Below are positions 11,419 through 54,378 of a DNA stretch of 64,000 nt, piece after piece. Both the position numbers and the translations under genes were made by a program. Source of the stretch: Streptomyces phaeolivaceus (GTDB taxonomy: Bacteria > Actinomycetota > Actinomycetes > Streptomycetales > Streptomycetaceae). Position 1 is the stretch's first letter, and each line of letters starts with the position of its first letter. The notes beneath the pieces are model-generated. The model did no database searches. It was not told where the DNA came from and saw only the letters and a program-made list of their open reading frames with translations. The stretch is taken from contig NZ_CP045096.1 in the NCBI RefSeq assembly GCF_009184865.1, positions 3,782,001-3,846,000 on the forward strand. Direction: 5' to 3'.

Positions 11419-12822
<1,404 letters not shown>

Positions 12823-25900: not shown

Positions 25901-28694
25901 GGCGCGCCGGGTGGAGCTGCCGACGTACGCCTTCCAGCGCGAGTGGTACTGGCCGCGGGACCGGGGCGGGGCCGGTGACGCCTCGTCGCTGGGGCTGAGC
26001 GGCGCGGACCATCCGCTCCTCGGGGCGTTCGCCCAGCTACCGGACTTCGGCGGAGTGTTGGCGACGGGTCTGCTGTCGCTGCGCAGCCACCCGTGGCTGG
26101 CGGACCACGCGGTGGCCGGGACGGTCGTCGTCCCGGGCGCCGCACTGGTGGAGTTGGTCGTGCGGGCCGGCGACGAGGCGGGCACGAGCACGGTCGACGA
26201 GCTGGTCGTCGAGGCGCCGCTGGTGCTGCCCGAGACCGGTGGCGTACGCCTTCAGGTGTCGGTGGCGGCCCTCGACGAACTCGGCCGGCGCCCGGTCACC
26301 GTCCACTCGGCCCCGCAGGACGCCGGACCGGAGACACCGTGGACGCGGCACGTCACCGGGTTCCTCACCGAGCAGGCCCCGGACGCCGGTTTCGACCTGG
26401 GCCAGTGGCCGCCCGCCCAGGCGGAGCAGGTCGCCGTCGACGGGTTCTACGACCGCCAGCTCGACACCGGTTACGCCTACGGGCCCGCTTTCCAGGGCGT
26501 CCGGGCCGTGTGGACCAAGGGCGAGGAGGTGTACGCGGAGGTCGTGCTGCCCGAGGGACAGTCCGCCGAAGGCTTCGGCATCCACCCCGCGCTCCTCGAC
26601 GCCGCCCTCCAGACGACCGGACTGCTCCCGGCGACCGGCGACCCGGCCCCGGGGACGACCCGGCTGCCGTTCGCCTGGAACGAGGTGTCCCTCTACGCGT
26701 CCGGCGCCACCGCGCTGCGCGTCCGCGCGGCCCGCAGTGGCGCCGACGGACTCACCCTGGACATCGCCGACCACACCGGCGCCCCCGTCGCCGGCATCGG
26801 CACCCTCACCATGCGCGAGGTGTCCGCCGGGCAACTCGGAGCGGCCGGTGTCCCGGCCCATGAGCACCTGTACCGCGTGTCCTGGAACCCGGTCGCGCTG
26901 CCCGAGCCCGCCGCGGCGGGCCGGCCGGCCCCGGTCGCCGTCGCCGACGGACCCGCCGTCCGCGCACTCGCCGCGTCCGCGCCCGAGTGGCTGCTGCTGG
27001 AACTACCGGACGGGGAGGGCGCCTTCGAGGCGACGGCCCGGACGCTCGACGTACTCCAGGCCTGGCTGGCCGAACCGCGGTTCGACGGCTCCCGGCTTGC
27101 CGTCGTCACCTGCGGCGCGGTCCGCGACGTGACCGACCCGGCGGGCGGCGCGGTCTGGGGGCTCGTGCGCACCGCGCAGTCCGAGAACCCCGGCCGGATC
27201 GCCCTGGTCGACCTGGACGAAGCATCCGCCGACCGTCTGCCGGCCGCCCTCGCTTCAGGCGAACCCCAACTCGCCCTGCGTGACGGCGAGGCCACCGCAC
27301 CCCGGCTCACCCGCGAACCCAGGGCCACCGAGGACACCTTCGGCGGCCTCGACCCGGAGGGGACCGTCCTGATCACGGGCGGTCTCGGGACGCTGGGCCG
27401 GCTGGTGGCCCGGCACGTGGTGGCGAAGCACGGCGCCCGGCATCTGCTGCTGGTGGGCCGACGCGGCCCGGAAAGCGAGGGGGCGTCCGAACTAGCGGCG
27501 GAACTAGGCGAGTTGGGCGCAACCCAGGTGCGGATCGAGGCGTGCGACGCCTCCGACCGTACCGCGCTCCAGGCCCTCCTGGCCTCCGTGGAACGGCCGT
27601 TGACGGCGATCGTGCACACGGCGGGCGTACTCGACGACGGTGTCATCGCGGCCCAGAGCCCCGAGCGGCTGGAGAAGGTGTTCCGCCCGAAGGCGGACGC
27701 CGCCCGCCATCTGCACGAGCTGACCCGGGGGACGGATCTCGGCGCCTTCGTCCTGTACTCCTCTGCCGCAGGCGTCCTCGGCAACCCCGGCCAGGCCAAC
27801 TACGCGGCTGCCAACGCCTACCTGGACGCCCTCGCCGAACAGCGCCGCTCGCAGGGCCTGCCCGCCACCGCCCTCGCCTGGGGCATGTGGGCCGAGGCGA
27901 CCGGCATGACCGCTCACCTCGACGGCACCGACCACGACCGCGGCAGGCGCGGCGGCATGCTGGGCCTGCCCACCGCCGAGGGTCTGGCGCTGCTCGACGC
28001 CGCGCTCGGCTCGACCGAGGCGCTTCTCGTACCGGCCCGGCTCGACCTGGCCGACCTGCGCTCCCGCTCCTCGGACGGCACCGCGGTCCCGCCGATGCTC
28101 CAGAGTCTCGTACGGCCGTCCGCCCGCCGTACCGCCAAGGCCGCCGTCGCACCGGCGGGAGAGACCCTCCTCCAGCACCTCGCCGGCAGGACCCCGCAGG
28201 AGCGCGCGCAGCTGCTGCTCGAGGTGGTGCGGGTGCACGTCGCCGCGGTGCTGGGGGTGGCCAACCCGGCCACCGTCGACGCCTCCCGGGCGTTCAAGGA
28301 CGCGGGCTTCGACTCGCTCACGGCCGTCGAGTTCCGCAACAGGCTCACCGAGGCCACCGGCGTGCGGCTGCCCGCGACGCTGGTCTTCGACCACCCGACG
28401 CCGGCCGCCCTGGTCGAACTCCTCCAGGAGCAACTGCGGCCCACGGAGCCCGAGAGCGCCGAGTCGCTGTCGGTCCTGAACGAACTGGACCGCCTGGAGC
28501 GGGCGATGACGGCCGGCCCCGGCGACGACGGCACCGACCCCGCCGAACGGGCACGGCTGGTCACCGAGCGGCTCAAGGCGCTCACCGCCAAGTGGCAGAA
28601 CCTCCACCCCGACCGCCTTGAGGACGTGGACCTGGAGACGGTCTCCGACGACGAGATGTTCGCCCTCGTCGACAACGAGCTCGGTCTGTCCTGA
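13983..28694 (+). CDS. Type I PKS: AHBA loading module and extension modules 1 and 2
   Basis: A 4903-residue RifA-like synthase. Loading: CoA-ligase domain 1-515 ([11 protein letters not shown] near 171, [12 protein letters not shown] Lys near 500), a KR-like domain about 759-920 without the nucleotide loop or catalytic Tyr, and an ACP with GFTS near 1049. Module 1: KS (Cys1284), AT (Ser1723, HAFHS near 1820: malonyl), DH (His2027), ER about 2424-2742 ([10 protein letters not shown]), KR (GGLGTLG, LDD, Tyr near 2896: B-type), ACP (Ser3062). Module 2: KS (Cys3301), AT (Ser3739, HAFHS), DH (His4042), KR (LDD), ACP (Ser4778). A helical docking tail ends DNELGLS. AHBA plus two malonyl units gives a saturated then an olefinic unit. 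The fully reducing first module fits benzenic rather than naphthalenic ansamycins. Confidence 0.95.
18869..19629 (+). repeat. AT-encoding block, copy 1 of 3 (module 1)
   Basis: From GGTCGTCTGGCGGTGCTG to the end of the AT this DNA is nearly identical to 24917-25677 and very similar to 30419-31180, including synonymous positions. The preceding KS-AT linker (18520-18718) is shared as well. Confidence 0.85.
19975..20462 (+). repeat. DH-encoding block, copy 1 of 2 (module 1)
   Basis: From CGGTGCGGTCACGCAACTG to AGGGCCTGA this matches 31513-31996 of module 3 base for base as far as I can follow. Module 2 shares only the central 26047-26195 part. Confidence 0.8.
24917..25677 (+). repeat. AT-encoding block, copy 2 of 3 (module 2)
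   Basis: Near-perfect copy of 18869-19629, including rare synonymous choices such as GTGATTTCGGGTGAGGAG. Divergence resumes just past the AT, where GTGTGGCCGCG replaces GCATCACCTCG. Confidence 0.85.
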
Positions 28695-28743: not shown

Positions 28744-31700
28744 ATGAGCACAGACACCGCACACGACGCCCAAAGCAGTGAGGACAAGCTCCGCGAGTAC
28801 CTCAAGAAGGCGCTCACCGACCTGCGCAGGGCCAACGGTCGGCTGCGCGAGGCCGAGGACGCCAGACATGAGCCGATCGCGATCGTCGGCATGGCATGCC
28901 GGCTCCCGGGCGGGGTCACCGGCCCGGCGGACCTGTGGCGGCTGGTCGCCGACGGCGCCGACGCCATCACCGCGTTCCCCGCCAACCGCGGCTGGGACCT
29001 GGACACCCTGTTCGACGACGACCCCGACCACGCCGGCACCTCCTACGCCCGGCACGGCGGATTCCTGCACGATGCGGGCGAGTTCGACGCGGGCTTCTTC
29101 GGGATCTCCCCGCGCGAGGCCCTCGCCATGAACCCGCAGCAACGGCTGCTCCTGGAGACCTCCTGGGAGACCTTCGAACGCGCCGGCATCGACCCGTCCG
29201 GCCTCGCCGGGCAGAACATCGGCATCTTCACCGGCGTCATGCACCACGACTACGCCCCCACCGGGCAGCGCATCCCGCCGGCCGTCGAGGGCATGCTCGG
29301 CATCGGCAACTCCGGCAGCGCCACCTCGGGCCGTGTCTCCTACACCCTCGGTCTGGAGGGACCCGCGGTCACCGTCGAGACCGCCTGCTCCTCCTCCCTG
29401 GTCGCCATCCACCTGGCCGCGCAGTCCCTGCGCGGCGGCGAGTGCTCGATGGCCCTCGCGGGCGGCGTCGCGGTGATGGCCACGCCCGACGGCTTCATCG
29501 AGTTCTCCCGCCAGCGCGGACTGGCCAGGGACGGCCGCGCGAAGGCGTTCTCGGCCGCTGCCGACGGCACCAACTGGTCCGAGGGAGCCGGCCTGCTGCT
29601 CCTGCAACGCCTCTCCGACGCGCGCCGCGACGGCCACCCCGTGCTCGCCGTCATTCGCGGTACGGCGGTCAACCAGGACGGCGCGTCCAACGGCCTGACC
29701 GCCCCCAACGGACCCTCCCAGCAGCGCGTCATCCGGGCCGCCCTGGCCGACGGCCGGCTGACCCCGGCCGACGTGGACGCGGTCGAGGCGCACGGCACCG
29801 GCACCGCCCTCGGCGACCCGATCGAGGCCCAGGCGGTCATCGCCGCGTACGGCCAGAACCGGCCGGAGAACCGCCCCCTGTGGCTCGGCTCCCTCAAGTC
29901 GAACATCGGGCACGCGCAGTCGGCCGCCGGGGTCGCCGGGGTCATCAAGATGGTGTTGGCGTTGGAGCACGAGGTGCTGCCGAAGACGTTGCATGTGGAT
30001 GAGCCGACGCCGAAGGTGGACTGGTCGGCGGGTGCGGTGGAACTGCTCACCGAGGCGCGTGCGTGGCCTCGGGAGGAGGGGCGTGTGCGGCGGGCGGGCG
30101 TCTCGTCCTTCGGGGTGAGCGGCACCAACGCGCATGTGGTGATCGAGGAGGCGCCGGCCGAGGAACCCGCCCTGGAGGAACGGGGGTTCACTGGTCCGCT
30201 GCCGTTCGTGGTCTCGGCCCGGTCCGCTGCCGCCCTGAAGGCGCAGGCCGAGCGAGTCGCCGACCACCTGGAGAGCGGGGAGTCCGCCCCGGCGGACGTC
30301 GCGTACTCGCTCGCGACCAGCCGCGCCGCCCTGGAGCACCGGGCCGTGGTCGTCGCCGCGGACCGTGCGCAGGCCGTGGCCGGACTGCGGTCGCTGTCCG
30401 GCGAGGTGCCTGCGGTCGCGGGTGGTCGTCTGGCGGTGCTGTTCACCGGGCAGGGTGCTCAACGGGTGGGGATGGGCCGGGAGTTGTACGCGACGTATCC
30501 GGTGTTCGCCGCTGCCTTCGACGAGGTCGTGGCGGAACTGGACCGGCACCTGCCCGTCCCGCTCAAGGACATTGTCTTCGAGGGTGCGGGCGATGTGGAC
30601 CGTACGGAGTTCACGCAGCCCGCGCTGTTCGCGGTCGAGGTGGCTCTGTTCCGGCTGGTGGAGTCGTGGGGTGTCAGGCCGGACTTCGTGGCCGGGCATT
30701 CGATCGGCGAGCTGGCGGCGGCGCATGTGGCCGGGGTGTGGTCGCTCGCGGACGCGGCGCGGCTGGTGGCCGCCCGGGGCCGGCTGATGCAGGCGCTGCC
30801 TGCGGGTGGCGCGATGATCGCCGTGCAGGCGAGCGAGGACGAGGTGCTGCCGCTGCTGACCGACGGGGTGGGCATCGCAGCCGTCAACGGACCCACCTCC
30901 GTGGTTGTTTCGGGCGTCGAGGTGGAGGCAGAGGCGATCGGTGCGCACTTCGCCGCACTGGGTCGTAGGACCAAGCGGCTGACGGTCAGTCATGCCTTCC
31001 ACTCGGTGCTGATGGACCCGATGCTGGAGGAGTTCCGGCAGATCGCCGCCACCCTCACCTACCACGAGCCTCGGATCGGTGTCGTCTCCAACGTCACCGG
31101 AAGGCCCGCGACCTCGGACGAGCTGACCTCCCCCGACTACTGGGCCCGCCATGTCCGCGAAGCCGTCCGCTTCGCCGACGGCATCACCTCGCTGCACGAG
31201 CAGGGCGTCACCGCGTTCCTCGAACTCGGGCCCACCGGTGTGCTCACCGCGCTCGGGCAGGAATGCGGCCCAGAAGACGCGCTGTTCGTTTCCTTCCAGC
31301 GCGCGGACATCCCCGAGGCGCGGGCCGCGGTGACTGCCGTCGGACGGCTCTTCGAGTACGGAGTCACCACCGACCTGGCCGCGCTCGCGCCGGGCGGGCG
31401 CCGGGTCGATCTGCCGACGTACGCCTTCCAGCGCGAGCGGTACTGGCTGCGCCCCCTTGAGACCCGTTCCGACGCCGTCTCGCTGGGTCTCGCCTCCGCC
31501 GGCCACCCTGCTCTCGGTGCGGTCACGCAACTGCCGGAGTCGGGTGGGGTGTTGGCGACGGGTCTGCTGTCGCTGCGCAGCCATCCATGGCTGGCGGACC
31601 ACGCGGTGGCCGGGACGGTCGTCGTCCCGGGCGCCGCACTGGTGGAGTTGGTCGTGCGGGCCGGCGACGAGGCGGGCACGAGCACCGTCGAGGAACTGGT

Positions 31701-34029
31701 GATCGAGGCCCCGCTGGCGCTTCCCGCCGCGGGCGGAGTACGGGTCCAGGTGGTCGTGGGCGGACTGGAGGACGGGCGGCGTGGGGTCAGCCTGTACTCG
31801 GCCGCTCACGACGCCGGGCCGCAGTCGCCCTGGACGAGGCATGTGACCGGCTCGCTCGTCGAACAGGCCAATGACACAAGGGAGTTCGACTTCTCCGCCT
31901 GGCCCCCGGCGGGTGCCGAGAAGCTGGACCTCGCCGGGTTCTACGAGGACCGCCGTGCGGCCGGTCTGGAGTACGGACCCGCCTTCCAGGGCCTGACCGC
32001 CGTATGGACCGAAGGCGAGGAGGTGTACGCCGAGGTCGCCCTGCCGGACGGACAGGAACCCGGGGCCTTCGGCATCCACCCCGCCCTGCTCGACGCGGCC
32101 CTCCAGGCCGGTGTCTTCCGTGGCACGGGCACCGGGGAGCCCCGGCTCCCGTTCGCCTGGTACGACGTGGCCCTGCACGCTTCCGGCGCCACCGCGTTGC
32201 GCGTCCGTGTGACCCCGGCCGGTGCCGACGGCGTCGCGCTGGAGATCGCCGACGACACCGGCGCCCCCGTCGCGTCGATCGGCACCCTCGTCACCCGCCC
32301 GCTGTCGCCCGAGACCTTCGGTGCCTCCCGTGCGCCCGACGCCCTGTTCCGGGTCGAGCGGACGCCCGTGGCCGTCGGTGCCGAGGACGTGCCGTTCGTC
32401 GTGACCGGCGCGGACCTGAGCGGGCTCGGGGCCGACCTGCCCGCCGTCGTCATCGCCGACCTCACCGAGGCAGAGGCGGCGGACGGGCCCTCCCGGGCCC
32501 TCGAACTCGCCGGCCGGGCACTGAAGTTGGTGCAGGCCTGGTCCGCCGGCCCCGGGTCGACCCTCGTGCTGCGTACCAAGGGCGCCGACGCCGCCGACCC
32601 CGCGGCCGCCGCAGTATGGGGACTGGTCCGTTCCGCCCAGACGGAGAACCCCGGACAGTACGTCCTCGTCGACGCCGACGACGGTGTCGCACCGGGGCGG
32701 ATCGCCGCCGCGGCCGTCGTGGGCGAGCCCCAACTGGTGATCCGTGACGCGACGGTCGCCGCCCTCCGCCTCGCCCGCGCGGCCGGCACCGGTACGCCGG
32801 CCGGCCGGACCCTCGACCCCGAGGGCGCCGTCCTGATCGTCGGCGGCACGGGCACCCTGGGCGCCCTCCTCGCCCGGCACCTGGTCACCTCGTACGGGGT
32901 GAAACACCTGCTGTTGGTGGGGCGGCGGGGTATCGCCGCCGAGGGTTCGGCCGAACTCGTGCATGAGCTGGGTGACTTGGGTGCCGTGGTGCGGGTCGAG
33001 GCGTGCGACGTCTCGGACCGCGAGTCCTTGCGGGCGCTGATCGCCTCGGTGGAGCGGCCGTTGACCGCGGTCGTGCACACGGCCGGTGTGCTGGACGACG
33101 GCGTGATCGCGGCCCAGAGTCCGGAGCGGCTGGCGAAGGTGTTCCGGCCGAAGGCGGACGCCGCCTGGCATCTGCACGAGCTGACCAAGGACCTGGACCT
33201 CGCGGCCTTCGTGCTCTACTCGTCCGTCGCCGGCACCGTCGGCAGCGCGGGCCAGGCCAACTACGCTGCTGCCAACGCCTACTTGGACGCCCTCGCCGAG
33301 CACCGTCGCTCGCTGGGGCTGCCCGCCACCTCGCTGGCCTGGGGCATGTGGGAGCAGAACGGCGGTATGCAGGACTCCCTCGCGCACAGCGACCGCGAGC
33401 GGATGAGCCGCAGCGGTATGCGGGCGCTGGCCGGTGACGAGGGGCTGGCCCTCTTCGACGCCGCGCTGCACGTCCCCGACGCGGCGCTGGTCGCGGCCCG
33501 CTTCGACTTCGCGGCCCTGCGCGACCGTACCGGACCGGACGCCGTACCCGCCCTGCTGCGGGCGCTGGTCCCGCCGGTCCGCAGGTCCGCGCGGGCGGCG
33601 GCCGGGGCGATGGCCGTGGAGTCCCTCGCCGAGCGGCTGGGCGGTCTGCCGCCCCAGGAGCGGCACCAGGCCGTGCTCGACCTGGTCGCCGAGCAGGCCG
33701 CCGCGGTGCTGGGCCTGGCGGGGGCCGACCAGGTGGCCGAGGACCAGGCGTTCAAGGACCTGGGCTTCGACTCGCTGACCGCGGTCGAGCTGCGCAACCA
33801 GCTCGCCGCCCGCACGGGCGTACGACTGCCCGCCACCCTCGTCTTCGACCACCCCACGCCGACCGCGCTCGCCCGGCGGCTGGACGAGGCGCTGGTGCCG
33901 CGGGAACCGCGGGAGACCGGCGAGGGGACGACGGCGTCCGGCTCGCCGGCCGGGACGGCGGACGAGCTGATCGCCGACATGGACGTGGAGAGCCTCGTGG
34001 CGCGTGCCCTGAGCGGCACGGCCAACTGA
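28744..34029 (+). CDS. Type I PKS: extension module 3 (KS-AT-DH-KR-ACP)
   Basis: A 1761-residue single-module synthase. It begins with a docking coiled coil ([20 protein letters not shown]). KS from about 43 has active Cys215 in ETACSSS (E replaces the usual D). AT has Ser653 and HAFHS, so malonyl. DH has His953 in [11 protein letters not shown] and the partner Asp in [11 protein letters not shown] from about 1357 has GGTGTLG, LDD and NYAAAN, active B-type. ACP carries Ser1677 in GFDSL. It should add a second double bond, creating a conjugated diene. The ATG at 28744 follows the PKS1 stop by 49 bp; the frame is open further upstream but inside the previous gene. Confidence 0.94.
30419..31180 (+). 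repeat. AT-encoding block, copy 3 of 3 (module 3)
   Basis: Matches copies 1 and 2 except for a replaced patch at about 30896-30970 (GTGGTTGTTTCGGGCGTCGAGGTG...), which instead resembles the module 4 AT. This is a mosaic suggesting gene conversion. Confidence 0.8.
31513..31996 (+). repeat. DH-encoding block, copy 2 of 2 (module 3)
   Basis: Same DNA as 19975-20462 in module 1; sequence diverges directly after AGGGCCTGA, inside the DH domain. Confidence 0.8.
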
Positions 34030-34056: not shown

Positions 34057-37000
34057 ATGACTGTTTCCGACGAACGACTCGTCGAGGCGCTGCGCGCGTC
34101 CGTCACCGAGAACGAGCGGCTGCGACGGGAGAACGAACGGATCACCGCCGCGGCCCGGGAGCCGGTGGCCATCGTGGGCATGGCCTGTCGGCTACCGGGC
34201 GGGATCAGCTCGCCCGAGCAGCTGTGGGACCTGGTCTCCGGCGGCCACGACGCCGTCACCGGCTTCCCGACCGACCGGGGCTGGGACCTGGACGGCCTCT
34301 ACCACCCGGAGCCCGGCCACCCCGGCACCACGTACGTGAAGGAGGCGGGGGTCCTGCACGGCGCGGGCGCCTTCGACGCCGGCTTCTTCGGACTCTCCGA
34401 ACGCGAGGCTCTCGGCACCGACCCGCAGCAGCGCATCCTGCTGGAGCTGGTCTGGGAGACGCTGGAGCGGGCCGGCATCGACCCGCACACCGTCCGCGGC
34501 AGCGACACCGGCGTCTTCGCGGGCCTGATGTACCACGACTACGCGAACGGGGTGCGCAGACTCCCCGACGGCGTCGACGCGTTCCTCGGCCTCGGCCGGT
34601 CCGGCAGCGTGCTGTCCGGCCGGGTCTCCTACCTGTACGACCTGACCGGCCCGTCCGTCACCGTCGACACCGCCTGCTCCTCCTCGCTGGTCACCCTCCA
34701 CATGGCCGTCCAGGCGCTGCGCGGCGGAGAGTGCTCCCTGGCGCTGGCCGGCGGGCTCGCCGTGATGGCCACGCCGGACGCGTACGTCGGCTTCGCGGCG
34801 CAGCGGGCGCTCGCGCCCGACGGACGGATCAAGGCCTTCTCCTCCTCCGCGGACGGCACCAACTGGGCCGAGGGCGCCGGGGTGCTGCTCGTCGAGCGGC
34901 TGTCGGACGCGCGCCGCAACGGGCACCCTGTGCTCGCCGTGATCCGCGGCTCGGCCGTCAACCAGGACGGCGCCTCCAACGGTCTGACCGCCCCCAACGG
35001 CCCCTCCCAGGAACGGGTCATCCGGGCCGCCCTCGCCAACTCGGGCCTGACGCCCGCCGATGTGGACACGGTGGAGGGGCACGGCACGGGCACCGTCCTG
35101 GGCGACCCGATCGAGGCGCAGGCGCTGCTCGCGACGTACGGCCGGAACCGCCCGGAGGGGCGCCCGTTGTGGCTCGGTTCCCTGAAGTCGAACATCGGGC
35201 ACGCGCAGGCCGCCGCCGGGGTCGCCGGGGTCATCAAGACCGTGCTGGCGCTGCGCAACGAACGGCTCCCGAAGACGCTGCACGTGGATGAGCCGACGCC
35301 GAAGGTGGACTGGTCCGAGGGCGCCGTCGAACTGCTCACCGAGGCCCGTCCCTGGCCCCGGGAGGAAGGACGCCCGCGCCGGGCGGGCGTGTCCTCGTTC
35401 GGTATCAGCGGCACCAACGCCCACGTGCTGCTGGAGGAGGCCGCACCGGAACCCGTCGCCGAGGCCGCCTTCCCGCGGGCCGCCGGACCCGTCGCCTGGG
35501 CCCTGTCCGCGAAGACCGCCGACGCCCTGCGCGCCCAGGCCGCGCGGCTCGACGCCTTCCTGGACACGGCGGACGCCCCCGGCGACCCGTACGACCTCGG
35601 GCACGCCCTCGCGCTGACCCGTACCGCCTTCGACGAGCGGGCCGTGCTCGTCGGCGAGGACACCGGCACCCTGCGCGCCAAGGTCCGGGCCCTCGCCGAG
35701 GGCGGCGCGGGCTCGCTCCCGGGCGTGGCCCGCGGCAGCCGCGCCAAAGGCCACCTCGCGGTGCTGTTCACCGGGCAGGGAGCCCAACGCATCGGCATGG
35801 GAAGGGAGTTGTACGAGACGTATCCCGCCTTCGCGGCGGCCTTCGACGCCATCGCCGCGGAACTCGACCGGCGTCTGCCCGTCCCGCTCAAGGACGTCGT
35901 CTTCGAGGGCGTGGGCGATCTGGACCGTACGGAGTTCACCCAGCCCGCGCTGTTCGCGATCGAGGTGGCGCTGTACCGCCTCTACGAGTCCTGGGGCGTG
36001 CGTCCGCGCGCCCTGGCCGGGCACTCCATCGGCGAGCTGGCGGCCGCGTACGTCGCCGGGGTGTGGTCGCCGGCCGACGCGGCGCGGCTGGTGGCCGCGC
36101 GGGGCCGGCTGATGCAGGCGCTGCCCTCGGGTGGCGCGATGATCGCCGTGCAGGCGACCGAGGACGAGGTGCTGCCGCTGCTGACCGGCGGGGTCGGCGT
36201 CGCGGCCGTCAACGGGCCGCGGTCCGTGGTGGTCTCGGGCGTCGCGTCCGAGGCGGCGGCGATCGGCGCGCACTTCACCGGACTCGGCCGCAGGACAAAG
36301 GAGCTGACGGTCAGTCATGCCTTCCACTCGCCTCTGATGGACCCGATGCTGGAGGAGTTCCGGCAGGTCGCCGCCGAGCTGTCCTACGACGAACCGCGCA
36401 TCCCCGTCATCTCCACCCTGACCGGGGCGCCCGCGACTTCGCGGGAGCTCGCCTCTCCCGACTACTGGGTGCGGCACGCCCGCGGCGTCGTCCGTTTCGC
36501 CGACGCCGTGCGCACCCTGCGTGCCCAGGGCGTGGCCACCTTCCTGGAGGCCGGTCCCGCCGCGGTGCTGTCCGCGCTCGGCCCCGGCTGCCTGGACGAC
36601 GGCGACGACGGCGCCGTCTTCCTTCCCGCCCTGCGCGTCGACGCCCCCGACGCGCAGACCGCGCTCACCGCGCTGGGCGGGCTGCACACCCGGGGCGTAC
36701 CCATCGACTGGACGGCGCTCTTCACGGGAGCACGGCGGGTGGCCCTCCCGACGTACGCCTTCCAGCGCCGCGACTACTGGCTGGAGGCCGGCACAGTGAC
36801 CACCGAGACGATCAGCACCCCCGAGACGGAGACCGCCACCGACCCCGGCGCCGAGGCGCTGGAAGCGACCCGGCAGGCCCTCGTGGCCCGGCTCGCCGGA
36901 CTGTCCGCGGAGGAGCAGGTCGCCCACCTCGTCGACCTGGTCGCGGCCCAGGCCGAGACCGCCCGCACCGAGCAGAACCCCGACGATGTCTTCGACGACG

Positions 37001-37185
37001 AACTGGACGGCGACAGCCCCTTCTTCGAGGTCGGCTTCAACTCCCTGAGCGCCGTCGAACTGCGCAATCGGCTGGTCGAGGCCACCGGCCTCACCCTCAG
37101 CCCGATGCTGCTCTTCGACTACCCGACCCCGGCCTACGTCGCCGAGTTCCTCCAGGAGCAGCTCGCCGCCGAGGGAGGTGCCTGA
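34057..37185 (+). CDS. Type I PKS: terminal module 4 (KS-AT-ACP, no thioesterase)
   Basis: A 1042-residue minimal module. An N-terminal docking helix ([20 protein letters not shown]) is followed by KS from about 34 (Cys207 in DTACSSS), AT with Ser657 and [11 protein letters not shown] (malonyl), and ACP with Ser996 in [13 protein letters not shown]. There is no KR, DH, ER or TE, so the last beta-keto group is kept and the chain must be released by another enzyme; the RifF-like amide synthase at 49759-50532 fits. Unlike the other modules its KS and AT are not part of the near-identical repeat set. GGGAGAGAAG precedes the ATG. Confidence 0.94.
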
Positions 37186-37186
37186 G

Positions 37187-38794
37187 ATGCCCGCGCACTC
37201 CGACGTACTGATCGTCGGCTACGGCCCCGTCGGCCAGCTGCTCGCGCTGCTCCTCGCCGACCGAGGCCGCACCGTCACCGTTGTCGAACGCTGGCCGCAG
37301 GCGTACCCCATGCCGCGGGCCGTGGCCTTCGACGGCGAGGGCGCGCGGACGCTGTCCGCGGCGGGCATCGGCGGGCTCGTCGGCCGGATCGGGGAGCCCT
37401 CCGGCGAGTACCTGTGGCAGAACGCCGACGGCCAGGTCCTGCTGCACATCGACGGCGCCGAGCGGAGACTGGCCGGCTGGCCGGAGTCCACCTCGATGTA
37501 CCAGCCGGCCCTGGAGGCCGAGATGGAGGCGCGCGGCGCCGGGCACGGCAACATCACCGTGCACCGCGGCCACGAGGTCGTCCGCATCGACGAGGACAGC
37601 GCGCCGGACGGCACGGTCCGCGTCACCGCGACCACCCCCGACGGCGACGAACTGGTCCTGACCGCTTCCTGGGTCGTCGGCTGCGACGGCGCCAACAGCT
37701 TCGTACGTCGCGCGATCGGCACCGAGGTGGCCGACCTCGGGTTCTCCCACGACTGGCTGGTCTGCGACGTCGTCCATGACGACGGCCGCACCTTCGACCC
37801 CAACAACCTGCAGATCTGCGACCCGGCCCGCCCGCGCACCTCGGTGTCCGCGGGTCCCGGCAACCGCCGCTACGAGTTCATGCGGTTGGCGGGGGAGACG
37901 GTGGAGGGACTCAACACCCCGGAAGCCTGCTGGGAGTTGCTGAAGCTCTTCGACGTCTCCCCGGCCGACTCCACCCTGCGCCGCCACCACGTCTACAGCT
38001 TCCGGGCCGGTTCGGCCGAGCACTGGCACCGCGGCCGGCTGGTGATCGCGGGCGACGCCGCCCACGTCATGCCGCCCTTCGCCGGCCAGGGCATGTCCTC
38101 TGGATTCCGGGACGCGGGCGCGCTGGCCTGGCGGCTGGACGCGCTGCTCGCCGGGCAGGCCGGGCCCGAGGTCCTCGACCACTACGGGCAGGAGCGCCGC
38201 ACCCACGTCAAACACGCCATCACCATGTCGGTCAACCTCGGCCGGATCATCTGCCAGACCGACCCCAAGGCGGCGGCCGACCGCGACCTGGTGATGAAGG
38301 CGGCGGCGGAACGGGCCGCGGCGGCGGGCACCGCGCCCCCGCAGCGCTCCCCGCTCCAACCGCTGACCAAGGGCTTTCTGCACCGCGCCCCGAACGGCCG
38401 GCCCGCCGAACCCGCCGGCACCCTCGCCCCGCAGGCCCGGGTCGCCCAGGGCAACCGCGGCGGCCTGTTCGACGACATCGTCGGCCTCGGCTTCGTCCTG
38501 CTCACCACGGAGGACCCCGAACTCCTGCTCACCGAACCGGACTTCGCCTTCCTCGCGGGTCTCGGCACCCGCGTCGTACGCGTGCTTCCCTCCGGCACGG
38601 ACCCGGCCCTGACGGTCCCCGGCGAGGTGGTCGACCTCGACGACGTCTACCTCCCGTTCCTGACCGCCGCGGCCGCTACCACGGCCCTGATCCGGCCGGA
38701 CTTCTACGTCTACGGAACGGCCGCGGGACCCGAGGCCGTACGGTCCCTGCTCGACGGGGCCCGGACGGCACTGCGGGCCACGGTGGCCGCCTGA
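37187..38794 (+). CDS. FAD-dependent aromatic hydroxylase, Rif-Orf19/MhpA-like
   Basis: A 535-residue class A flavoprotein hydroxylase. It has GYGPVGQLLALLLADRG at the FAD-binding N-terminus, VVGCDGANSFVRR at about 160 and VIAGDAAHVMPPFAGQGM at about 285. The length and motifs match 3-(3-hydroxyphenyl)propionate hydroxylases. In rifamycin and related clusters this family (Orf19, GdmM) oxidises the AHBA-derived ring, during chain extension in the naphthalenic cases. It begins one base after the PKS3 stop, with GGGAGG 8 bases upstream of ATG 37187, so it is co-expressed with the PKS. Ring hydroxylation or quinone formation is the likely role. Confidence 0.88.
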   Translation: MPAHSDVLIVGYGPVGQLLALLLADRGRTVTVVERWPQAYPMPRAVAFDGEGARTLSAAGIGGLVGRIGEPSGEYLWQNADGQVLLHIDGAERRLAGWPESTSMYQPALEAEMEARGAGHGNITVHRGHEVVRIDEDSAPDGTVRVTATTPDGDELVLTASWVVGCDGANSFVRRAIGTEVADLGFSHDWLVCDVVHDDGRTFDPNNLQICDPARPRTSVSAGPGNRRYEFMRLAGETVEGLNTPEACWELLKLFDVSPADSTLRRHHVYSFRAGSAEHWHRGRLVIAGDAAHVMPPFAGQGMSSGFRDAGALAWRLDALLAGQAGPEVLDHYGQERRTHVKHAITMSVNLGRIICQTDPKAAADRDLVMKAAAERAAAAGTAPPQRSPLQPLTKGFLHRAPNGRPAEPAGTLAPQARVAQGNRGGLFDDIVGLGFVLLTTEDPELLLTEPDFAFLAGLGTRVVRVLPSGTDPALTVPGEVVDLDDVYLPFLTAAAATTALIRPDFYVYGTAAGPEAVRSLLDGARTALRATVAA

Positions 38795-39001: not shown

Positions 39002-40042
39002 TCAGTCCTCGCGCGGCATCCGCGCGAGGACGCCCATCACCACCTCCTCCGGTACGGAGGAAACCAGTTCGGGGCCCCGCGGGCCGCTCAGTACGAAAGA
39101 GAGGTCCGTCACCGCCTTCTTGTCCAGCCGCATCAGCGCGACCAGTTCGGCGTCCCGCACACCGGCCGGCAGCCGGTGCGGGAGCCCGTAGTCCCGTACC
39201 ACTTCCTCGTGTTCGGTGGCTTGTGCTTCGTCGACACGGCCCAGCGCTTCCGCCAGCCGGCCGGCGAAGACCGTGCCGATCGCGACGGCCTCGCCGTGCC
39301 GCAGCGCGAAACCGGTGGCCCGCTCCAGGGCGTGGCCCAGTGTGTGGCCGTAGTTGAGGATGTGCCGCAGCGAGGCGTCCCGCTCGTCCGCGGCGACGAT
39401 ACGCGCCTTGCACGCCACGCTCGCCGAGATCTGCTCGACGAGCGGCCGTCCCCGCAGGTCGCCGGTCCCGATGAAGTGCGCGCGGGCGATCTCCCCGTAC
39501 CCGTTGCGCCACTCGCGCTCGGGGAGCGTGCCGAGGAAGTCGGTGTCGCACAGCACCGCGGACGGCTGCCAGTACTGGCCGACCAGGTTCTTGCCCTGCG
39601 GCAGGTTCACCGCGGTCTTGCCGCCGACGCTGGCGTCCACCTGCGCGAGCAGGGTCGTCGGCAGATGGACCACCGGGAGCCCGCGGTGGTACAGCGAGGC
39701 GGCGAGCCCGACCGAGTCGGTCGTCGTGCCGCCGCCGACGGAGACGACGGCGTCCGCGCGGCTGAGCCCCCACTCGGCGAAGGCCCGGCACATCCGTTCC
39801 ACGGTGGCGAGCGACTTGTCCTCCTCGCCGTCCCGCGCCGACAGGTGCAGTGTGGGCAGCCCCGTGTCGGGAAGCAGCGACCGCGGCCGGGCGGAGACCA
39901 CCACGGCCTTGCGGGCGCCGAGCCCGGCGAGGATGCCGGTGAGCCGATGTCGTACGCCCGCGCCTATGTGGACCGGGTACGAGCGCTCACCCAGGTCGAC
40001 GTCGATGCGCGAGGCGCCGGTCGTAGCAGTCGTAGCAGTCAA
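39002..40042 (-). CDS. rifG: AminoDHQ synthase, RifG-like
   Basis: A 346-residue dehydroquinate synthase homologue. It has GGGTTTDSVGLAASLYHRG and LPTTLLAQVDASVGGKTAVN (NAD and substrate site), GKNLVGQYWQPS, the metal-binding HILNYGHTLGHALE and FALRHGEAVAIG. In the cluster it cyclises aminoDAHP to 5-deoxy-5-aminodehydroquinate. The start is placed at TTG 40042, because GAAAGGA lies 7 bases upstream and the gene before it ends at 40057. The frame stays open above this point but overlaps that gene. Transcribed leftwards with the 40057-40890 gene. Confidence 0.9.
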   Translation of the reverse strand: MTATTATTGASRIDVDLGERSYPVHIGAGVRHRLTGILAGLGARKAVVVSARPRSLLPDTGLPTLHLSARDGEEDKSLATVERMCRAFAEWGLSRADAVVSVGGGTTTDSVGLAASLYHRGLPVVHLPTTLLAQVDASVGGKTAVNLPQGKNLVGQYWQPSAVLCDTDFLGTLPEREWRNGYGEIARAHFIGTGDLRGRPLVEQISASVACKARIVAADERDASLRHILNYGHTLGHALERATGFALRHGEAVAIGTVFAGRLAEALGRVDEAQATEHEEVVRDYGLPHRLPAGVRDAELVALMRLDKKAVTDLSFVLSGPRGPELVSSVPEEVVMGVLARMPRED

Positions 40043-40056
40043 GGAGAGTCCTTTCG

Positions 40057-40890
40057 TCAGGCCGACTGGAGGGGCGTGACGCCCGGGAAACCCGTGAAAG
40101 GCGTCGGCACAGGGGTGTTGGCGGCCAGGGCCGAGCGGATCGTGCGGGCCGCCCGGGCGCCGGTGCGGGTGGGGACGCCCAGCCGTTCGTGGGTGAGCAG
40201 GACGTGGTCGTACAGCAGGAAGTTGACAGGTACGCCGTCCTCGCGGCCCGTGGCGACGGCGTCGCGGACCGCGGACAGGTAGCGCTCCCACAGCGCCGGG
40301 TCGCCGGGGACGCTCGCGTCCCCGGCCGGCGCGGCGGCGCGGGCGTCCGCCTCGGCCGCCTCCTCCGCCCGGTCCGCCGGGTCCAGGCCGGCCGCGCCGA
40401 ACTGCCAGAAGTGGAAGAGGAAGGCGCCCCGTTCGCGCTCGGGCACCAGCTTGCTGACCAGCCACAGGTGCGCGACGGCCAGCGACTGGCGCTGCGCCGG
40501 GTCCAGGCCGCCGTCCAGGAGCAGTTCCAGCGCGAACGAGCTGGAGCGGGTGGCCAGCCGGTGCGCCATCCGCAGGGTGCCCGGGGTCTGGTACTTGGCC
40601 GTCTCCGGGGCGTAAGTCCCGCTGATCAGCGGCCAGTTGTAGGCCGCGGTGTGGGCGAGCAGCCTCCGCTCCAGTTCCTTCAGCACTGGATCAAAGGAGT
40701 GGAACCACAGCCCGAGATCCCCCTGGCCCGCGGCGTCCGGCCGGCGGAACTCCCACAGCGCGTCCGGGTCCTGGGCGTGCAGATGGCCCACCAGGTCACC
40801 GACCATCGTGGTCACGACCCGGACGACGTGGGCCTCCGGCCTGCTCCGCATCGGGTTGGGCAGTCGGACGAAGAGCCATTGACGGTTCAT
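40057..40890 (-). CDS. Free-standing SpaB_C / thiopeptide-type domain protein (putative)
   Basis: A 277-residue protein starting MNRQWLFVRLPNP. The patterns WEFRRPDAAGQGDLGLWFHS, SGTYAPETAKYQTPGTLRMA and LATRSSSFALELLL resemble, in order, the WxFxRY...LRLRF, TYxxExxRYGGP and AxxLFxxDSxxxL blocks of the lantibiotic dehydratase C-terminal (SpaB_C, TIGR03891-like) domain. No LanB glutamylation domain, precursor peptide or YcaO is nearby. It lies 14 bp upstream of rifG in the same operon, with GAGGAG before the ATG. No known AHBA step is unassigned, so a post-PKS or pericyclic role is conceivable. The family call is by eye and uncertain; if wrong this is a cluster-specific hypothetical protein. 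Confidence 0.55.
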   Translation of the reverse strand: MNRQWLFVRLPNPMRSRPEAHVVRVVTTMVGDLVGHLHAQDPDALWEFRRPDAAGQGDLGLWFHSFDPVLKELERRLLAHTAAYNWPLISGTYAPETAKYQTPGTLRMAHRLATRSSSFALELLLDGGLDPAQRQSLAVAHLWLVSKLVPERERGAFLFHFWQFGAAGLDPADRAEEAAEADARAAAPAGDASVPGDPALWERYLSAVRDAVATGREDGVPVNFLLYDHVLLTHERLGVPTRTGARAARTIRSALAANTPVPTPFTGFPGVTPLQSA

Positions 40891-41011
40891 CGCGGAAATC
40901 TCCTCGTGGGATGGCGGGGCAGTGGACGGATGCCGTGAGGCTAGGGTCCGCGGGGCCCGAAATCTCCGGTGGGCGCGCAGCGGCCGTTCGGGGCCCGAGA
41001 ACAGGGCGGAG

Positions 41012-41084: not shown

Positions 41085-42020
41085 ATGAGTGGTATCTCGG
41101 GACTCCTCGGTATCGACATCGGCGGCACCAAGGTCGCCGTCCGGGTGGAGGGGGCGGGGGCCGAGCCGTACTCGGCCGGCTTCCGCTGGACGCCCGGCGC
41201 GGACGTGGGTGCGGACATCACCGCGCTGGCCGACTGCCTGGCGGTGGTACGGCGGCACTGGCCGGGTCCGTTGCGTGCGGCGGGCGTGGCCATGCCCGCC
41301 ACACTGGACCCGGAGGGCCGGGTGACGGCGTGGCCCAACCGTCCCGCCTGGGCGGGCCTCGGACTCGCGGCGGAACTGCGCGGCATGCTGCCCGGCACGG
41401 CCGTGGCCGTGGCCGACGACGGCGACCTCGCCGCGCTCGCCGAGGCGCGGGCGGCGGGCCTGACCGACGTGCTCTACGTCGGCGTGGGCACCGGCATCGG
41501 CGGCGGCAGCGTCCTCGGGGGCGAGCTGTGCCCCGGCCCCGCCCGCGGCTCCTTCGAACTCGGCCATGTCGTCGTCGACCGCGCCGGCGCCCGTTGCGAC
41601 TGCGGGCGGCGCGGCTGCGTCCAGTCCCGCGCCTCCGGTCCGGCGATCCTGCGCCGCGCGGCCGAACTGCGGGACGCGCCGGTGACGTACGCGGAACTCT
41701 GCGAGGCGTGGCAGCGGCGGCTTTCCTGGGCGGTGGTGGCGGTGGACGAGGCGTGCGCGGCGCTGGCCACGGCGATCGTCTCGGCCGCGGAACTTCTCCA
41801 CCCCGAGGCGGTCATCGTGGGCGGCGGCTTCCCCTCCGGCCTCCCGGGCCTCACCTCTCTCGTCTCCCGCCACGCGACCCGGCTCTCCCGCCCGGGCCAC
41901 CCCGCCCCGCCCCACCAGGACGCCCGCCTGGGGCCCCTCTCCTCGCTGGACGGTGCGCTGCTGCTGGCGCACGCGACATGTACGAGCGCGGAAGCGCTGG
42001 AAGCGGTGGTGAGGGGCTGA
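41085..42020 (+). CDS. rifN: ROK-family kanosamine kinase, RifN-like
   Basis: A 311-residue ROK sugar kinase: LLGIDIGGTKVAVRVEG (ATP loop) at the N-terminus, VADDGDLAALAEA, GVGTGIGGGSVLGG at about 138-151, the zinc-binding CDCGRRGCVQ at about 181-190 and EAVIVGGGF. In the AHBA pathway RifN phosphorylates kanosamine to kanosamine-6-phosphate, feeding iminoerythrose-4-phosphate formation. General glucokinases share these motifs; the cluster context gives the kanosamine assignment. It reads divergently from the SpaB_C-like/rifG pair. Confidence 0.88.
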   Translation: MSGISGLLGIDIGGTKVAVRVEGAGAEPYSAGFRWTPGADVGADITALADCLAVVRRHWPGPLRAAGVAMPATLDPEGRVTAWPNRPAWAGLGLAAELRGMLPGTAVAVADDGDLAALAEARAAGLTDVLYVGVGTGIGGGSVLGGELCPGPARGSFELGHVVVDRAGARCDCGRRGCVQSRASGPAILRRAAELRDAPVTYAELCEAWQRRLSWAVVAVDEACAALATAIVSAAELLHPEAVIVGGGFPSGLPGLTSLVSRHATRLSRPGHPAPPHQDARLGPLSSLDGALLLAHATCTSAEALEAVVRG

Positions 42021-49674: not shown

Positions 49675-49758
49675 GGCCGCGTTCCGCCTTCCCGAGCCAT
49701 TCCCGATCCCTGAGTTCCCTTTCCCTCGATTCCCGTTCCCTGCATGGAGGTTTTCCAG

Positions 49759-50532
49759 GTGTTCGACACAGATTCCTATCTGAAGAAGCTGGGGTACTCC
49801 GGTCCTACGGAGCCGACCCCGGAGCTGCTGCGGACGCTCCACAAGCTGCACCTGATGAAGGTGCCGTTCGACAACTCGCTCAACGCCGGGCGGGGGCTGG
49901 ACATCTGGGAGTACGTCGACATCGACGTCGACGAGACCTTCGACGCGGTGATCACCGGGGGCCGTGGCGGCGTCTGCCACGAACTCAGCGGTCTCTTCCG
50001 CAACCTGCTCACCCGGCTGGGCTTCGACGTGGCCGTCATGGCCGCCGGGGTCCGGATGGCGAACGGCGAGTTCGGGCCCGAGATGGAGCACATGCTCCAC
50101 GTCGTCCGGTTCGGCGAGGAGCGGTGGCTCGTCGACGTCGGCTTCGCCGGCCCCTCCTTCCTGGAGCCGCTGCGCCTGGCCGCGGGGAAGGAGCAGGAGC
50201 AGTACGGCTGCACGTACAGGCTGGACGCCGAGGACGGGCACTGGACCCTCAACCGGCGTCCGCTGGACGGCGCGTGGGAAGTCGTCTACCGCCTCCCCGA
50301 CGTCGTACGCGAGCTGTCGGACTGGCGCGGCGACCCGACCCTGCGGGAGTACGCGCGCGAGCTCAGCTCCGCAGTGACGTTGATCCGCGGCCGCGCCTTC
50401 GAGACCGGACAGCTGACCCTGATCGGCAAGCGCCTGATCACGGTGGCACAGGGCCGCCAGCAGATCCGTGTCCTGGTGAAGCCGGCGGACTACGAGAACG
50501 CCGTGGAGTCCATCCTGGTCACAGAGATCTGA
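49759..50532 (+). CDS. rifF: Amide synthase (arylamine N-acetyltransferase fold), RifF-like
   Basis: A 257-residue NAT-fold enzyme starting MFDTDSYLKKLGY. The catalytic triad is visible: Cys in GGRGGVCHELSG (about 74), His in EHMLHVVRF (about 112) and Asp in VDVGFAG (about 127). It would lift the finished chain off ACP4 and close the macrolactam with the AHBA amine, replacing a thioesterase. The start is GTG 49759, because GGAGG sits 8 bases upstream at 49746-49750; an upstream ATG at 49744 would overlap that ribosome-binding site. The 84-bp gap before it is a run of TTCCC repeats. Confidence 0.92.
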   Translation: MFDTDSYLKKLGYSGPTEPTPELLRTLHKLHLMKVPFDNSLNAGRGLDIWEYVDIDVDETFDAVITGGRGGVCHELSGLFRNLLTRLGFDVAVMAAGVRMANGEFGPEMEHMLHVVRFGEERWLVDVGFAGPSFLEPLRLAAGKEQEQYGCTYRLDAEDGHWTLNRRPLDGAWEVVYRLPDVVRELSDWRGDPTLREYARELSSAVTLIRGRAFETGQLTLIGKRLITVAQGRQQIRVLVKPADYENAVESILVTEI

Positions 50533-50675: not shown

Positions 50676-51392
50676 TCAGGCGACTTCGGCCACCGTCGGG
50701 CACAGGGCCAGCAGCTCGTCCGGCCGGTGCAGGGCCACGTCCGGGGCGGCGGCGAGGAGTTCGGCCGCGTCGCACTCGCCCCACAGCGCGGCCACCGTGG
50801 CGACACCGGCCGCGCGGGCCGCCGAGATGTCGGTGACGGCGTCGCCGACCATCATGGCCTCCTCGGGACGGGCACCGAGCAGTTCCAGCGCACGCAGCAC
50901 GATGTCGGGCGCGGGCTTGGCCCGGGCCACCTCGTCGGAGCCGAGCACATGGTCGAAGTGGTGCAGGACACCGAGGGTTTCCAGCAGGTGCCGGGCCCGG
51001 ACACCGGCCTTGCCGGTGGCGATGGCGGTACGGAAGCCACGCTCGCGCAGCTCCTCCAGCACCGGGGTGACGCCGGCGAACAGCGGAACCCGGCCGGCGA
51101 GCCGGTAGCTCTCCCGGACAAAGGGCTCCTCCATCTCCAGCGGCAGCCCCATGAGTTTCATGATGTCGGGAAAATATCGGCCGAGATGGCGCTCGTACTC
51201 CTCGAAGGGAGCCTTTCCGTCGCCGATGACCTCGGCATAGGCGATCGTGAACGCCTCCCGCATGACCGGAAAACTGTCCACGATCACACCGTCGAGATCG
51301 AAGACGACCACGCTCTTGGGGTGGCTGAACGGACCGTCGGCCGTGCCGACGGCGCCGGTCGTTTCGGGGGCGAAGGCGATACCAGAGTGCAT
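50676..51392 (-). CDS. rifM: HAD-superfamily phosphatase, RifM-like
   Basis: A 238-residue phosphoglycolate-phosphatase-like HAD protein: VFDLDGVIVDS (motif I, nucleophile Asp) at about 30-40, IATGKAGVRARHLLETLG (motif II Thr), and KPAPDIVLRAL with MMVGDAVTDISAARAAG (motifs III/IV). RifM homologues in AHBA clusters act with RifL and RifK in making UDP-kanosamine/kanosamine. The start at 51392 has AGGGAG nearby. Third gene of the leftward rifK-rifL-rifM set. Confidence 0.9.
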   Translation of the reverse strand: MHSGIAFAPETTGAVGTADGPFSHPKSVVVFDLDGVIVDSFPVMREAFTIAYAEVIGDGKAPFEEYERHLGRYFPDIMKLMGLPLEMEEPFVRESYRLAGRVPLFAGVTPVLEELRERGFRTAIATGKAGVRARHLLETLGVLHHFDHVLGSDEVARAKPAPDIVLRALELLGARPEEAMMVGDAVTDISAARAAGVATVAALWGECDAAELLAAAPDVALHRPDELLALCPTVAEVA

Positions 51393-51492
51393 GGGGATCT
51401 CCCTGACGTCGGTATATCGGTGCACGGCGGGGCTGGGAGCGCCGCGGGGCACTCCACGGCCCGCCGCACGGAGCTCGTGATGCCGGTCGGGT

Positions 51493-52590
51493 TCACACGG
51501 CGGCGGGCACCGCCGGCACGGGCCGGTACCGGCGCGCCGAGGCGTAGAGCCGTTCGATGACGCCGATGGTCCGGCGGGCCTCGGCGACGGCCCGGCCCTG
51601 GTAGCCGGGGTCGGTGAGCAGCCGGGGCAGGGCGCCGAGCTGACGGTCGTACTCCGCGCCGACCGGCTCCTCCTCGAACGGGACCGGCACGGTCTCACCG
51701 GCGCTCGCCAGCAGCAGTTCGGAGCCGCCCGCACGGTTGGGGCTGAACCCGAACGTGCACCGCAGCGAGATCGCCGCCGCGCTGCCCTCGACGCGGATCA
51801 TGGTGGTGTCCAGCACCTCGTGCGAGGCCCAGCTGGCCCGCAGGGCCACCGACACTCCGGTGGAGGTGACCAGGAAACCTCGCGCGGTGTCCTCGACGTC
51901 CCCGCCGCCGGCCAGGGCCGGACCCTCCCCGTGCCGCCAGGAGGTCCGGTGCGCGGCGGTGTCGAGGAAGTCACCCGAGACCGAGCCGAGGACCTGGTCG
52001 TAGTCGACGGCGCCGAGCAGCGGGGTGACCGTGTCCAGCAGATGCCAGCCGAGGTCGACCAGGGCACCGCCGCCGGACAGGTCGCCGCGGGTGAACCAGC
52101 CGCCCGCGTCCGGCACCCCCTTGGCCCGCACCCAGGACACGTCGATGTGCCGGATCTCGCCGGCCTTGCACGCCACAGCGGCGCCCAGTGCGGCGACGTC
52201 CGCGCGGTAGCGGGCGGCGCTTCCCGCGAGCAGCACAGCGCCGGCCTCGCGCTCGGCCGCGGCCAACTGGACCGCCTCGGCGGAGGAGAGACAGACGGGC
52301 TTCTCCAGGAAGACCGGCACTCCTCGCCGCAGCAGACCGGTGGCCACCGGAGTGTGCAGATGATTCGGTACAGCGACCACGGCGAGGTCCGCCAGATCGG
52401 TGGTCACGTCCGCGACGTCGGCCAGCACGCGGATGTCCGGCCAGGCCGCCGCGGCGGCCTCGCGGGCCGCCGGTGACGGGTCGGCCACCGCCACCACCTC
52501 GTACGCCGGGTGCGCGACCAGCCGCGACAGCCAGATCTCCCGCCCCGCCCAGCCGAGCCCCACGACGGCCACGCGCAGGCGCGCGGTCAC
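51493..52590 (-). CDS. rifL: Gfo/Idh/MocA oxidoreductase, RifL-like
   Basis: A 365-residue NAD(P)-dependent sugar oxidoreductase: VAVVGLGWAGREIWLSRL (dinucleotide loop), VVAVPNHLHTPVA, FLEKPVCLSS (EKP motif with catalytic Lys) and GGGALVDLGWHLLD. RifL is thought to oxidise C-3 of UDP-glucose so that RifK can transaminate it to UDP-kanosamine. It overlaps the AHBA synthase gene by 4 bases (ATGA at 52587-52590), which matches the known physical RifL-RifK partnership. Confidence 0.92.
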   Translation of the reverse strand: MTARLRVAVVGLGWAGREIWLSRLVAHPAYEVVAVADPSPAAREAAAAAWPDIRVLADVADVTTDLADLAVVAVPNHLHTPVATGLLRRGVPVFLEKPVCLSSAEAVQLAAAEREAGAVLLAGSAARYRADVAALGAAVACKAGEIRHIDVSWVRAKGVPDAGGWFTRGDLSGGGALVDLGWHLLDTVTPLLGAVDYDQVLGSVSGDFLDTAAHRTSWRHGEGPALAGGGDVEDTARGFLVTSTGVSVALRASWASHEVLDTTMIRVEGSAAAISLRCTFGFSPNRAGGSELLLASAGETVPVPFEEEPVGAEYDRQLGALPRLLTDPGYQGRAVAEARRTIGVIERLYASARRYRPVPAVPAAV

Positions 52591-53934: not shown

Positions 53935-54378
53935 ATGAGCGAGCTGCTACTCCTGAACGGGCCGAACCTCGGCATTCTCGGGCGTCGTGAGCCCGAGATC
54001 TACGGCACGGAAACCTTGAACGACATAGCAGAAGCGGTGGCGGAAGAGATCGCCGACCGCGGCTGGAAGGTGAAGAATATTCAGCACGACTCGGAGGCGG
54101 AACTTATCCGCGCCATTCAGGACGGCTATGACACGGTGGGAGCCATCGTCAATCCCGGGGCGCTTATGATTGCGGGCTGGAGCCTGCGGGACGCACTGGC
54201 CAGTTACCCGCGCCCCTGGATAGAGGTGCACATTTCCAATATCTGGGCGCGGGAGTCCTTCCGGCACGCCTCGGTGATCGCCCCGATCGCCGACGGCCTG
54301 ATCGCAGGCCTCGGCTCCACGGGCTACAGGCTCGCGGCCCGGGCCCTGCTCGACCTGATCCCGGCCGAGGTCCGATGA
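53935..54378 (+). CDS. rifJ: AminoDHQ dehydratase (type II dehydroquinase), RifJ-like
   Basis: A 147-residue type II 3-dehydroquinase: LLLNGPNLGILGRREPEIYG (substrate loop with catalytic Arg and Tyr), NPGALMIAGWSLRDAL, WIEVHISNIWARESFRHAS with the catalytic His. It converts aminodehydroquinate to aminodehydroshikimate, the substrate of AHBA synthase. GGAGG lies 5 bases before ATG 53935. The gene overlaps the thioesterase start by 4 bases. Confidence 0.93.
   Translation: MSELLLLNGPNLGILGRREPEIYGTETLNDIAEAVAEEIADRGWKVKNIQHDSEAELIRAIQDGYDTVGAIVNPGALMIAGWSLRDALASYPRPWIEVHISNIWARESFRHASVIAPIADGLIAGLGSTGYRLAARALLDLIPAEVR

Follow-up and report, generated by a model that had tools for sequence, protein, structure and literature searches.

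A free-standing protein with a predicted SpaB_C fold encoded beside rifG in AHBA clusters, possibly a helper of AHBA supply

SPB, the name used here for a 277-aa protein of the SpaB_C/Lant_dehydr_C fold, is encoded in a 64,000-nucleotide stretch of the Streptomyces phaeolivaceus genome (the window), where its free-standing gene stands beside rifG, as had been observed in the preliminary description. In every locus whose surroundings are readable, the SPB family belongs to an AHBA cluster, and with a single exception the gene directly precedes rifG; its link is very probably with AHBA or the starter, not with the ansa chain. It is tentatively proposed that the aminoshikimate pathway has taken over a fold of RiPP chemistry (glutamate elimination, [4+2] aza-cyclisation) which, as an almost constant neighbour of the aDHQ synthase, constitutes a widespread yet overlooked part of AHBA supply, common to pentaketide ansamycins and quinolidomicin-like giant macrolides. 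If true, this would place a RiPP-type fold outside peptide chemistry and give a free-standing SpaB_C protein a non-RiPP role, while a RifG-tied helper or extra step would be useful for titre engineering; according to the available part of PMC13000494, ansamycin production can be limited by AHBA supply. Searches of the ansamycin/AHBA literature for lantibiotic-dehydratase or thiopeptide genes gave no published description of SPB, which is weak evidence; the same part of PMC13000494 does not mention thiopeptides and uses the word dehydratase only for PKS domains and in references.

The features of the window are as follows (coordinates, strand, feature).

11419..12813, minus strand: rifH, class II DAHP synthase type (PF01474, 1e-186)
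12896..13681, minus strand: rifI, shikimate dehydrogenase type (PF08501)
13983..28694, plus strand: PKS with an AHBA-loading adenylation domain, KS-AT-DH-ER-KR-ACP and KS-AT-DH-KR-ACP (domain matches; order deduced from match positions, with a third KR stretch also reported)
28744..34029, plus strand: PKS module KS-AT-DH-KR-ACP (domain matches)
34057..37185, plus strand: PKS terminal module KS-AT-ACP, beta-keto end (domain matches)
37187..38794, plus strand: FAD monooxygenase (FAD_binding_3)
39002..40042, minus strand: rifG, aminodehydroquinate synthase (PF01761/PF24621), with a TTG start 14 bp past the SPB stop
40057..40890, minus strand: SPB (ORF)
40900..40905, minus strand: GAGGAG, a Shine-Dalgarno-like site 5' of the SPB ATG (sequence reading)
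41085..42020, plus strand: rifN-type ROK kinase, divergent from SPB (PF00480, 8.2e-37)
49744..50532, plus strand: rifF, NAT-type amide synthase (PF00797, 6.3e-41)
50676..53645, minus strand: rifM (HAD phosphatase), rifL (GFO/IDH/MocA oxidoreductase) and rifK (DegT-type AHBA synthase)
53935..54378, plus strand: rifJ-type class II dehydroquinase, 147 aa (PF01220, 1.7e-46)

The window thus contains an AHBA-primed type I PKS with an adenylating loading region and four extension modules, together with rifF and the AHBA genes. The number of extension modules assigns the line to the pentaketide ansamycins, a class already known (PMC13000494, available part), and the consecutive DH-KR modules predict a conjugated diene. 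Some other genes of the window deserve mention. At 42327-43033 (plus strand), only two pieces of a berberine-bridge-type FAD oxidase gene are left, which differ in reading frame and correspond to residues 10-54 and 335-477 of a relative; relatives in L002, L003, L004 and L016 give near full-length matches. An HxlR regulator (PF01638) at 44695-45060 (minus strand) is common to several SPB-containing clusters. Close to the window end, a phage-type tail tube protein (PF25681, 3.6e-67) is encoded at 62913-63491 (plus strand), perhaps as part of a tail-like particle locus.

The assignment of SPB to the SpaB_C/Lant_dehydr_C family, made initially from the sequence, is supported by a Pfam profile search (PF14028, 8.7e-7), with a whole-protein score of 29.8 bits against the gathering cut-off of 24.4. 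An AF2 model with a pLDDT of 88.5 predicts the SpaB_C fold and finds TbtD and NisB as structural matches; the [4+2] cyclases PbtD and TbtD are among the top ones. The 14-bp distance to rifG is likewise as first described. Two other readings of the locus, the plus strand of 40057..40890 and an overlapping ORF at 40189-40938, gave translations without any Pfam match and were rejected. SPB is best regarded as a free-standing, non-RiPP protein with a predicted SpaB_C fold.

Successive protein searches yielded 13, 14 and 29 relatives of SPB (29 at E<=1e-3). Their named sources are Streptomyces, except for one Actinosynnema pretiosum protein (P0032); a precomputed PF14028 label is lacking for distant relatives such as P0017 and P0032. 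Statements on distribution rest on 32 loci whose surroundings were read, most of the 29 proteins being without genome placement. A rifG homologue is present in the same cluster in 32/32 of these loci, and in 31 of them SPB is the next gene upstream of rifG, both on one strand; the sole exception is genome G1051, where about 7 kb separates a short SPB from the rifG of its cluster. In the four named genome loci (L001-L004), SPB is situated between rifN and rifG. A scan of 392 Streptomyces genomes gave an SPB match in 11, nine of which, the window included, represent family members, each next to rifG on its upstream side; the remaining two (G109 and G258, 25 and 22 bits) are located within longer ORFs in RiPP-looking loci. 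In a second family, f37, 19 of 300 genomes match SPB; 18 matches adjoin rifG, the nineteenth is G1051, and three of the f37 clusters match Micromonospora quinolidomicin clusters. A class-wide sample added nothing new, its three matching genomes out of 394 being among the loci already counted.

The other neighbour of SPB varies: it is rifN in the window group, rifH in L062, L063, L065 and L100, and the loading PKS in L059, L076, L085 and 17/18 f37 loci. A candidate rifG start overlaps the SPB stop in 19/31 loci, which is compatible with translational coupling. No other gene near rifG co-occurs with SPB as cleanly (nine SPB-containing and 36 SPB-less neighbourhoods); an MFS group is present in 4/9 versus 0/36, the window span being wider than the others. 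Likewise, no RifG residue splits loci with and without SPB cleanly (31 versus 35), and the best position, A188 (23/31 versus 1/35), is confounded by relatedness. In a RifG tree of 67 rows, built by a quick method, the SPB label needs six changes, and the starred branches still allow a single origin. SPB might conceivably stand in for an AHBA gene that a cluster lacks: among 16 SPB-containing clusters, rifJ, rifK, rifL and rifM are found in 12-13, the others being only partly covered, and rifH and rifI in five and six, respectively, again with incomplete coverage. As for P0032 (CNX65_16535), this SPB relative from an ansamitocin-producing species may correspond to the gene that lies between asm45 and asm47 in the ansamitocin cluster; the asm45-47 operon is named in PMC12623338, the available part of which does not describe asm46.

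The pairing does not hold in the opposite direction. rifG matches 39 of the 392 Streptomyces genomes at 45 places, nine with SPB and 36 without, and the latter include rif-type gene orders, so SPB is not generally present in AHBA clusters. Some of the SPB-less places are atypical AHBA loci, such as that of G097 with only 50% identity. The chaxamycin gene table, as far as PMC4551226 is available, has nothing between cxmF and cxmG. Given its absence from this table and from rif-type gene orders, SPB should therefore be considered accessory. A wider profile found no further member in 30 SPB-negative Streptomyces genomes, while 3/3 SPB-containing controls matched; its 72.8-bit match is a RiPP locus of G302 with YcaO and Lant_dehydr_N proteins, and five matches of 20-24 bits lie inside ORFs of 819-1208 aa. 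In family f18, SPB was found in 0/35 genomes, a set without a positive that shows little; eight f18 genomes of the class sample carry rifG. Also among the 36 places, five RifG homologues of about 319 aa (L070, L073, L074, L075 and L082) have no other recognised AHBA gene within 20 kb; a short gene, ferredoxin-like by eye, precedes each, LAL regulators are present in four, and the loci possibly represent another aminoshikimate-like pathway.

The preliminary description had suggested that SPB performs a pericyclic ([4+2]-like) or elimination step on the diene of the ansa polyketide. This idea agrees with the structural similarity to PbtD and TbtD and with the predicted diene, but it is at odds with the distribution of the gene. 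Amide synthase was searched for with RifF in 57 genomes, no match meaning none at E<=1e-20. RifF is without a match in 12 of the 18 SPB-containing f37 genomes; in four others (G826, G902, G1036 and G1046) the matches are weak, distant or on another contig, and only two have a good match, in the cluster itself (G1052) or on another contig beside a KS-AT-ACP PKS (G861). Among the SPB-containing Streptomyces, one genome of nine lacks a RifF match (G073, a fragmented assembly). The PKS was read in three of the twelve RifF-less genomes, G573, G1048 and G798 (the last from fragmentary gene calls), where SPB belongs to long AHBA-primed PKS clusters. The order in G573 (loading-ACP, DH-KR, DH-ER-KR / DH-KR / KR x3 / DH-ER-KR x3, KR) is the one tabulated for a quinolidomicin-type cluster in the available part of PMC8698034. 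Four-module ansamycin clusters with SPB were read through in the window, G074 and G262 and in part in G133 and G332, while G065 and G053 have no SPB but have loading, three DH-KR modules and KS-AT-ACP, with rifF. Hence a link of SPB to the amide synthase or macrolactam is disfavoured by the RifF-less f37 genomes, and a link to the KS-AT-ACP terminus by G065/G053 and by the quinolidomicin-like clusters that possess SPB. Given these RifF-less and SPB-less clusters, SPB is tied neither to the ansa ring nor to the terminal PKS module; it follows rifG. A pericyclase role on the ansa chain is now unlikely, and the chance that SPB acts on the diene in any of these ways is very small, the more so as the protein misses the TIGR03891 cut-off (23.1 versus the curated 48.45 bits) and the residues for elimination are not retained.

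In NisB, R786, R826 and H961 have a catalytic role in glutamate elimination. The residue numbers of the printed PDB alignment served to find R784/R786, R826 and H961, and 27 SPB family rows were aligned by sequence with five RiPP rows, which form a modest control, as only two of them show R786. The R786 position is Arg in 0/25 aligned family rows (two of the 27 have gaps), the R826 position is Arg in 3/27 and Lys in 4/27, and the H961 position is His in 7/27; the window SPB has W62, K99 and L231 at these places. The family has a motif of its own, with L158, F159, W162, R174 and R252 in 27/27, Y204 in 26/27 and Q163 in 25/27. Most of these invariant residues are of a hydrophobic or structural kind, and R252, together with R236 and S117, occurs commonly in the five RiPP rows as well. 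L115 and the rifG-adjacent L114 lack the N-terminal half.

The statement that LanB and YcaO genes are lacking also holds: no LanB N-terminal (glutamylation) domain was found among the window genes scanned, and the window's genome has no PF02624 match, while 5/14 control genomes do; a distance of at least about 0.6 Mb separates its other PF14028 loci from SPB. For the window, an ordinary RiPP tailoring gene was therefore rejected. SPB differs from the TclM type (TbtD/PbtD) in scoring below the TIGR03891 cut-off, in the lack of YcaO in the genome and in having rifG as a neighbour in an AHBA cluster, and from the C-terminal elimination domains of NisB, MibB and MadB in the absence of a glutamylation domain among the scanned window genes and of conserved equivalents of R786, R826 and H961. 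Sequence searches of PDB chains with P0002, A1, L115 and L178 gave no SpaB_C match. The thiopeptide-type resemblance is nevertheless substantiated by the structural matches to TbtD/PbtD and by the SpaB_C protein of the G302 RiPP locus (L178), to which SPB is 32% identical over 175 aa (E 5e-14). Unlike SPB, L178 passes TIGR03891 (58.4 bits), is encoded together with YcaO and Lant_dehydr_N proteins, and retains the HLRLR stretch and a His at the H961 position. The 32% identity suggests that SPB descends from the thiopeptide/LanB lineage.

SpaB_C domains elsewhere act on peptides, and SPB might accordingly perform PEARL-like or peptide-scaffold chemistry, its substrate being a carrier peptide or an aminoacyl-tRNA product that feeds into the pathway. 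In G1051, the short SPB relative adjoins a YcaO gene (PF02624) and a gene for a 50-aa peptide with three Cys-containing repeats; this stretch (L142, 5141-9674), which also encodes a JmjC protein (PF08007) and, by eye, an MFS-like protein, lies within an ansamycin cluster and is possibly a RiPP side branch of it. However, none of the other AHBA-cluster stretches compared contains a counterpart of the G1051 YcaO, tblastn otherwise finding only the RiPP locus of G258, and neither YcaO nor the LanB N-terminal domain accompanies SPB in the window's genome and scanned window genes, respectively, which leaves peptide chemistry highly improbable.

The sequence of SPB has changed much faster than those of the AHBA enzymes. 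Over 16 clusters, with the window as reference, the median identity is 33% for SPB (n=16), versus 71% for rifG (n=16), 75% for rifK (n=13), 76% for rifJ (n=12), 56% for rifN (n=14) and 49% for rifF (n=5). For three pairs, dN/dS is 0.80, 0.41 and 0.39 for SPB, 0.27, 0.16 and 0.26 for rifG, and 0.42, 0.32 and 0.38 for rifN. The high value of 0.80, obtained with the closest relative, and the existence of short family members would suit an evolutionary passenger, that is, a decaying RiPP-type gene kept by its operon position. Against this, dN/dS is below 1 in all three pairs, which points to loose selection, and in the L004 pair SPB (0.39) is close to rifN (0.38) and the last PKS (0.37); no internal stops occur in the SPB matches listed, and the pairing with rifG is retained while other neighbours shuffle. 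A mere passenger is thus improbable.

Taken together, the strict rifG pairing, the frequent possible overlap, the lost elimination residues and an N-terminal half that can be dispensed with speak for SPB as a partner or helper in the RifG step. SPB would work at or next to this step of the aminoshikimate pathway as an accessory protein whose synthesis is matched to that of RifG; it might bind either RifG itself or the amino-sugar acid that RifG consumes or forms (aminoDAHP/aminoDHQ) and thereby favour the flux to AHBA. A fold of the thiopeptide/LanB lineage would be used with its peptide chemistry lost, and SPB would be dispensable in lineages without the gene. This mechanism is put forward as a tentative one, somewhat short of an even chance, and for a protein with one fixed partner such fast divergence is odd. 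The many rifG places without SPB, the chaxamycin table and the four-module ansamycin lines of several SPB-containing Streptomyces clusters also count against it. The RifK-RifL complex provides a precedent for AHBA gene neighbours acting together (PMC8788734, available part). SPB is not among the named AHBA genes, rifG-N and rifJ, in the available parts of PMC8788734 and PMC4551226; compared with this set, it directly precedes rifG in nearly all loci read, yet is absent from 36/45 Streptomyces rifG-like places.

The main rival explanation makes SPB an enzyme whose substrate is AHBA itself or one of the first AHBA-primed intermediates on the carrier. Ansamycins and quinolidomicin-like macrolides would share this step, and linkage to rifG would just keep the starter genes together. 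Such an enzyme is compatible with the occurrence of SPB in RifF-less genomes, including G573, G798 and G1048, and fits the divergent arrangement of SPB and the loading PKS in 17/18 f37 loci, the conserved family motif and the fast divergence, which suits product-specific substrates. It is harder to reconcile with the largely hydrophobic or structural nature of the invariant residues and the sharing of R252, R236 and S117 with RiPP rows, with the truncated L114, and with two ansamycin clusters of pentaketide type that have a similar assembly line but no SPB; we consider it rather unlikely, with the RifG helper remaining the preferred reading.

Finally, a calcineurin-like phosphoesterase of about 270-285 aa recurs in the AHBA clusters of G573, G798, G1048, G074 and L053 (PF00149 confirmed for G573 and L053, the others by eye), and in L053 it is the called gene next to rifG on the upstream side.
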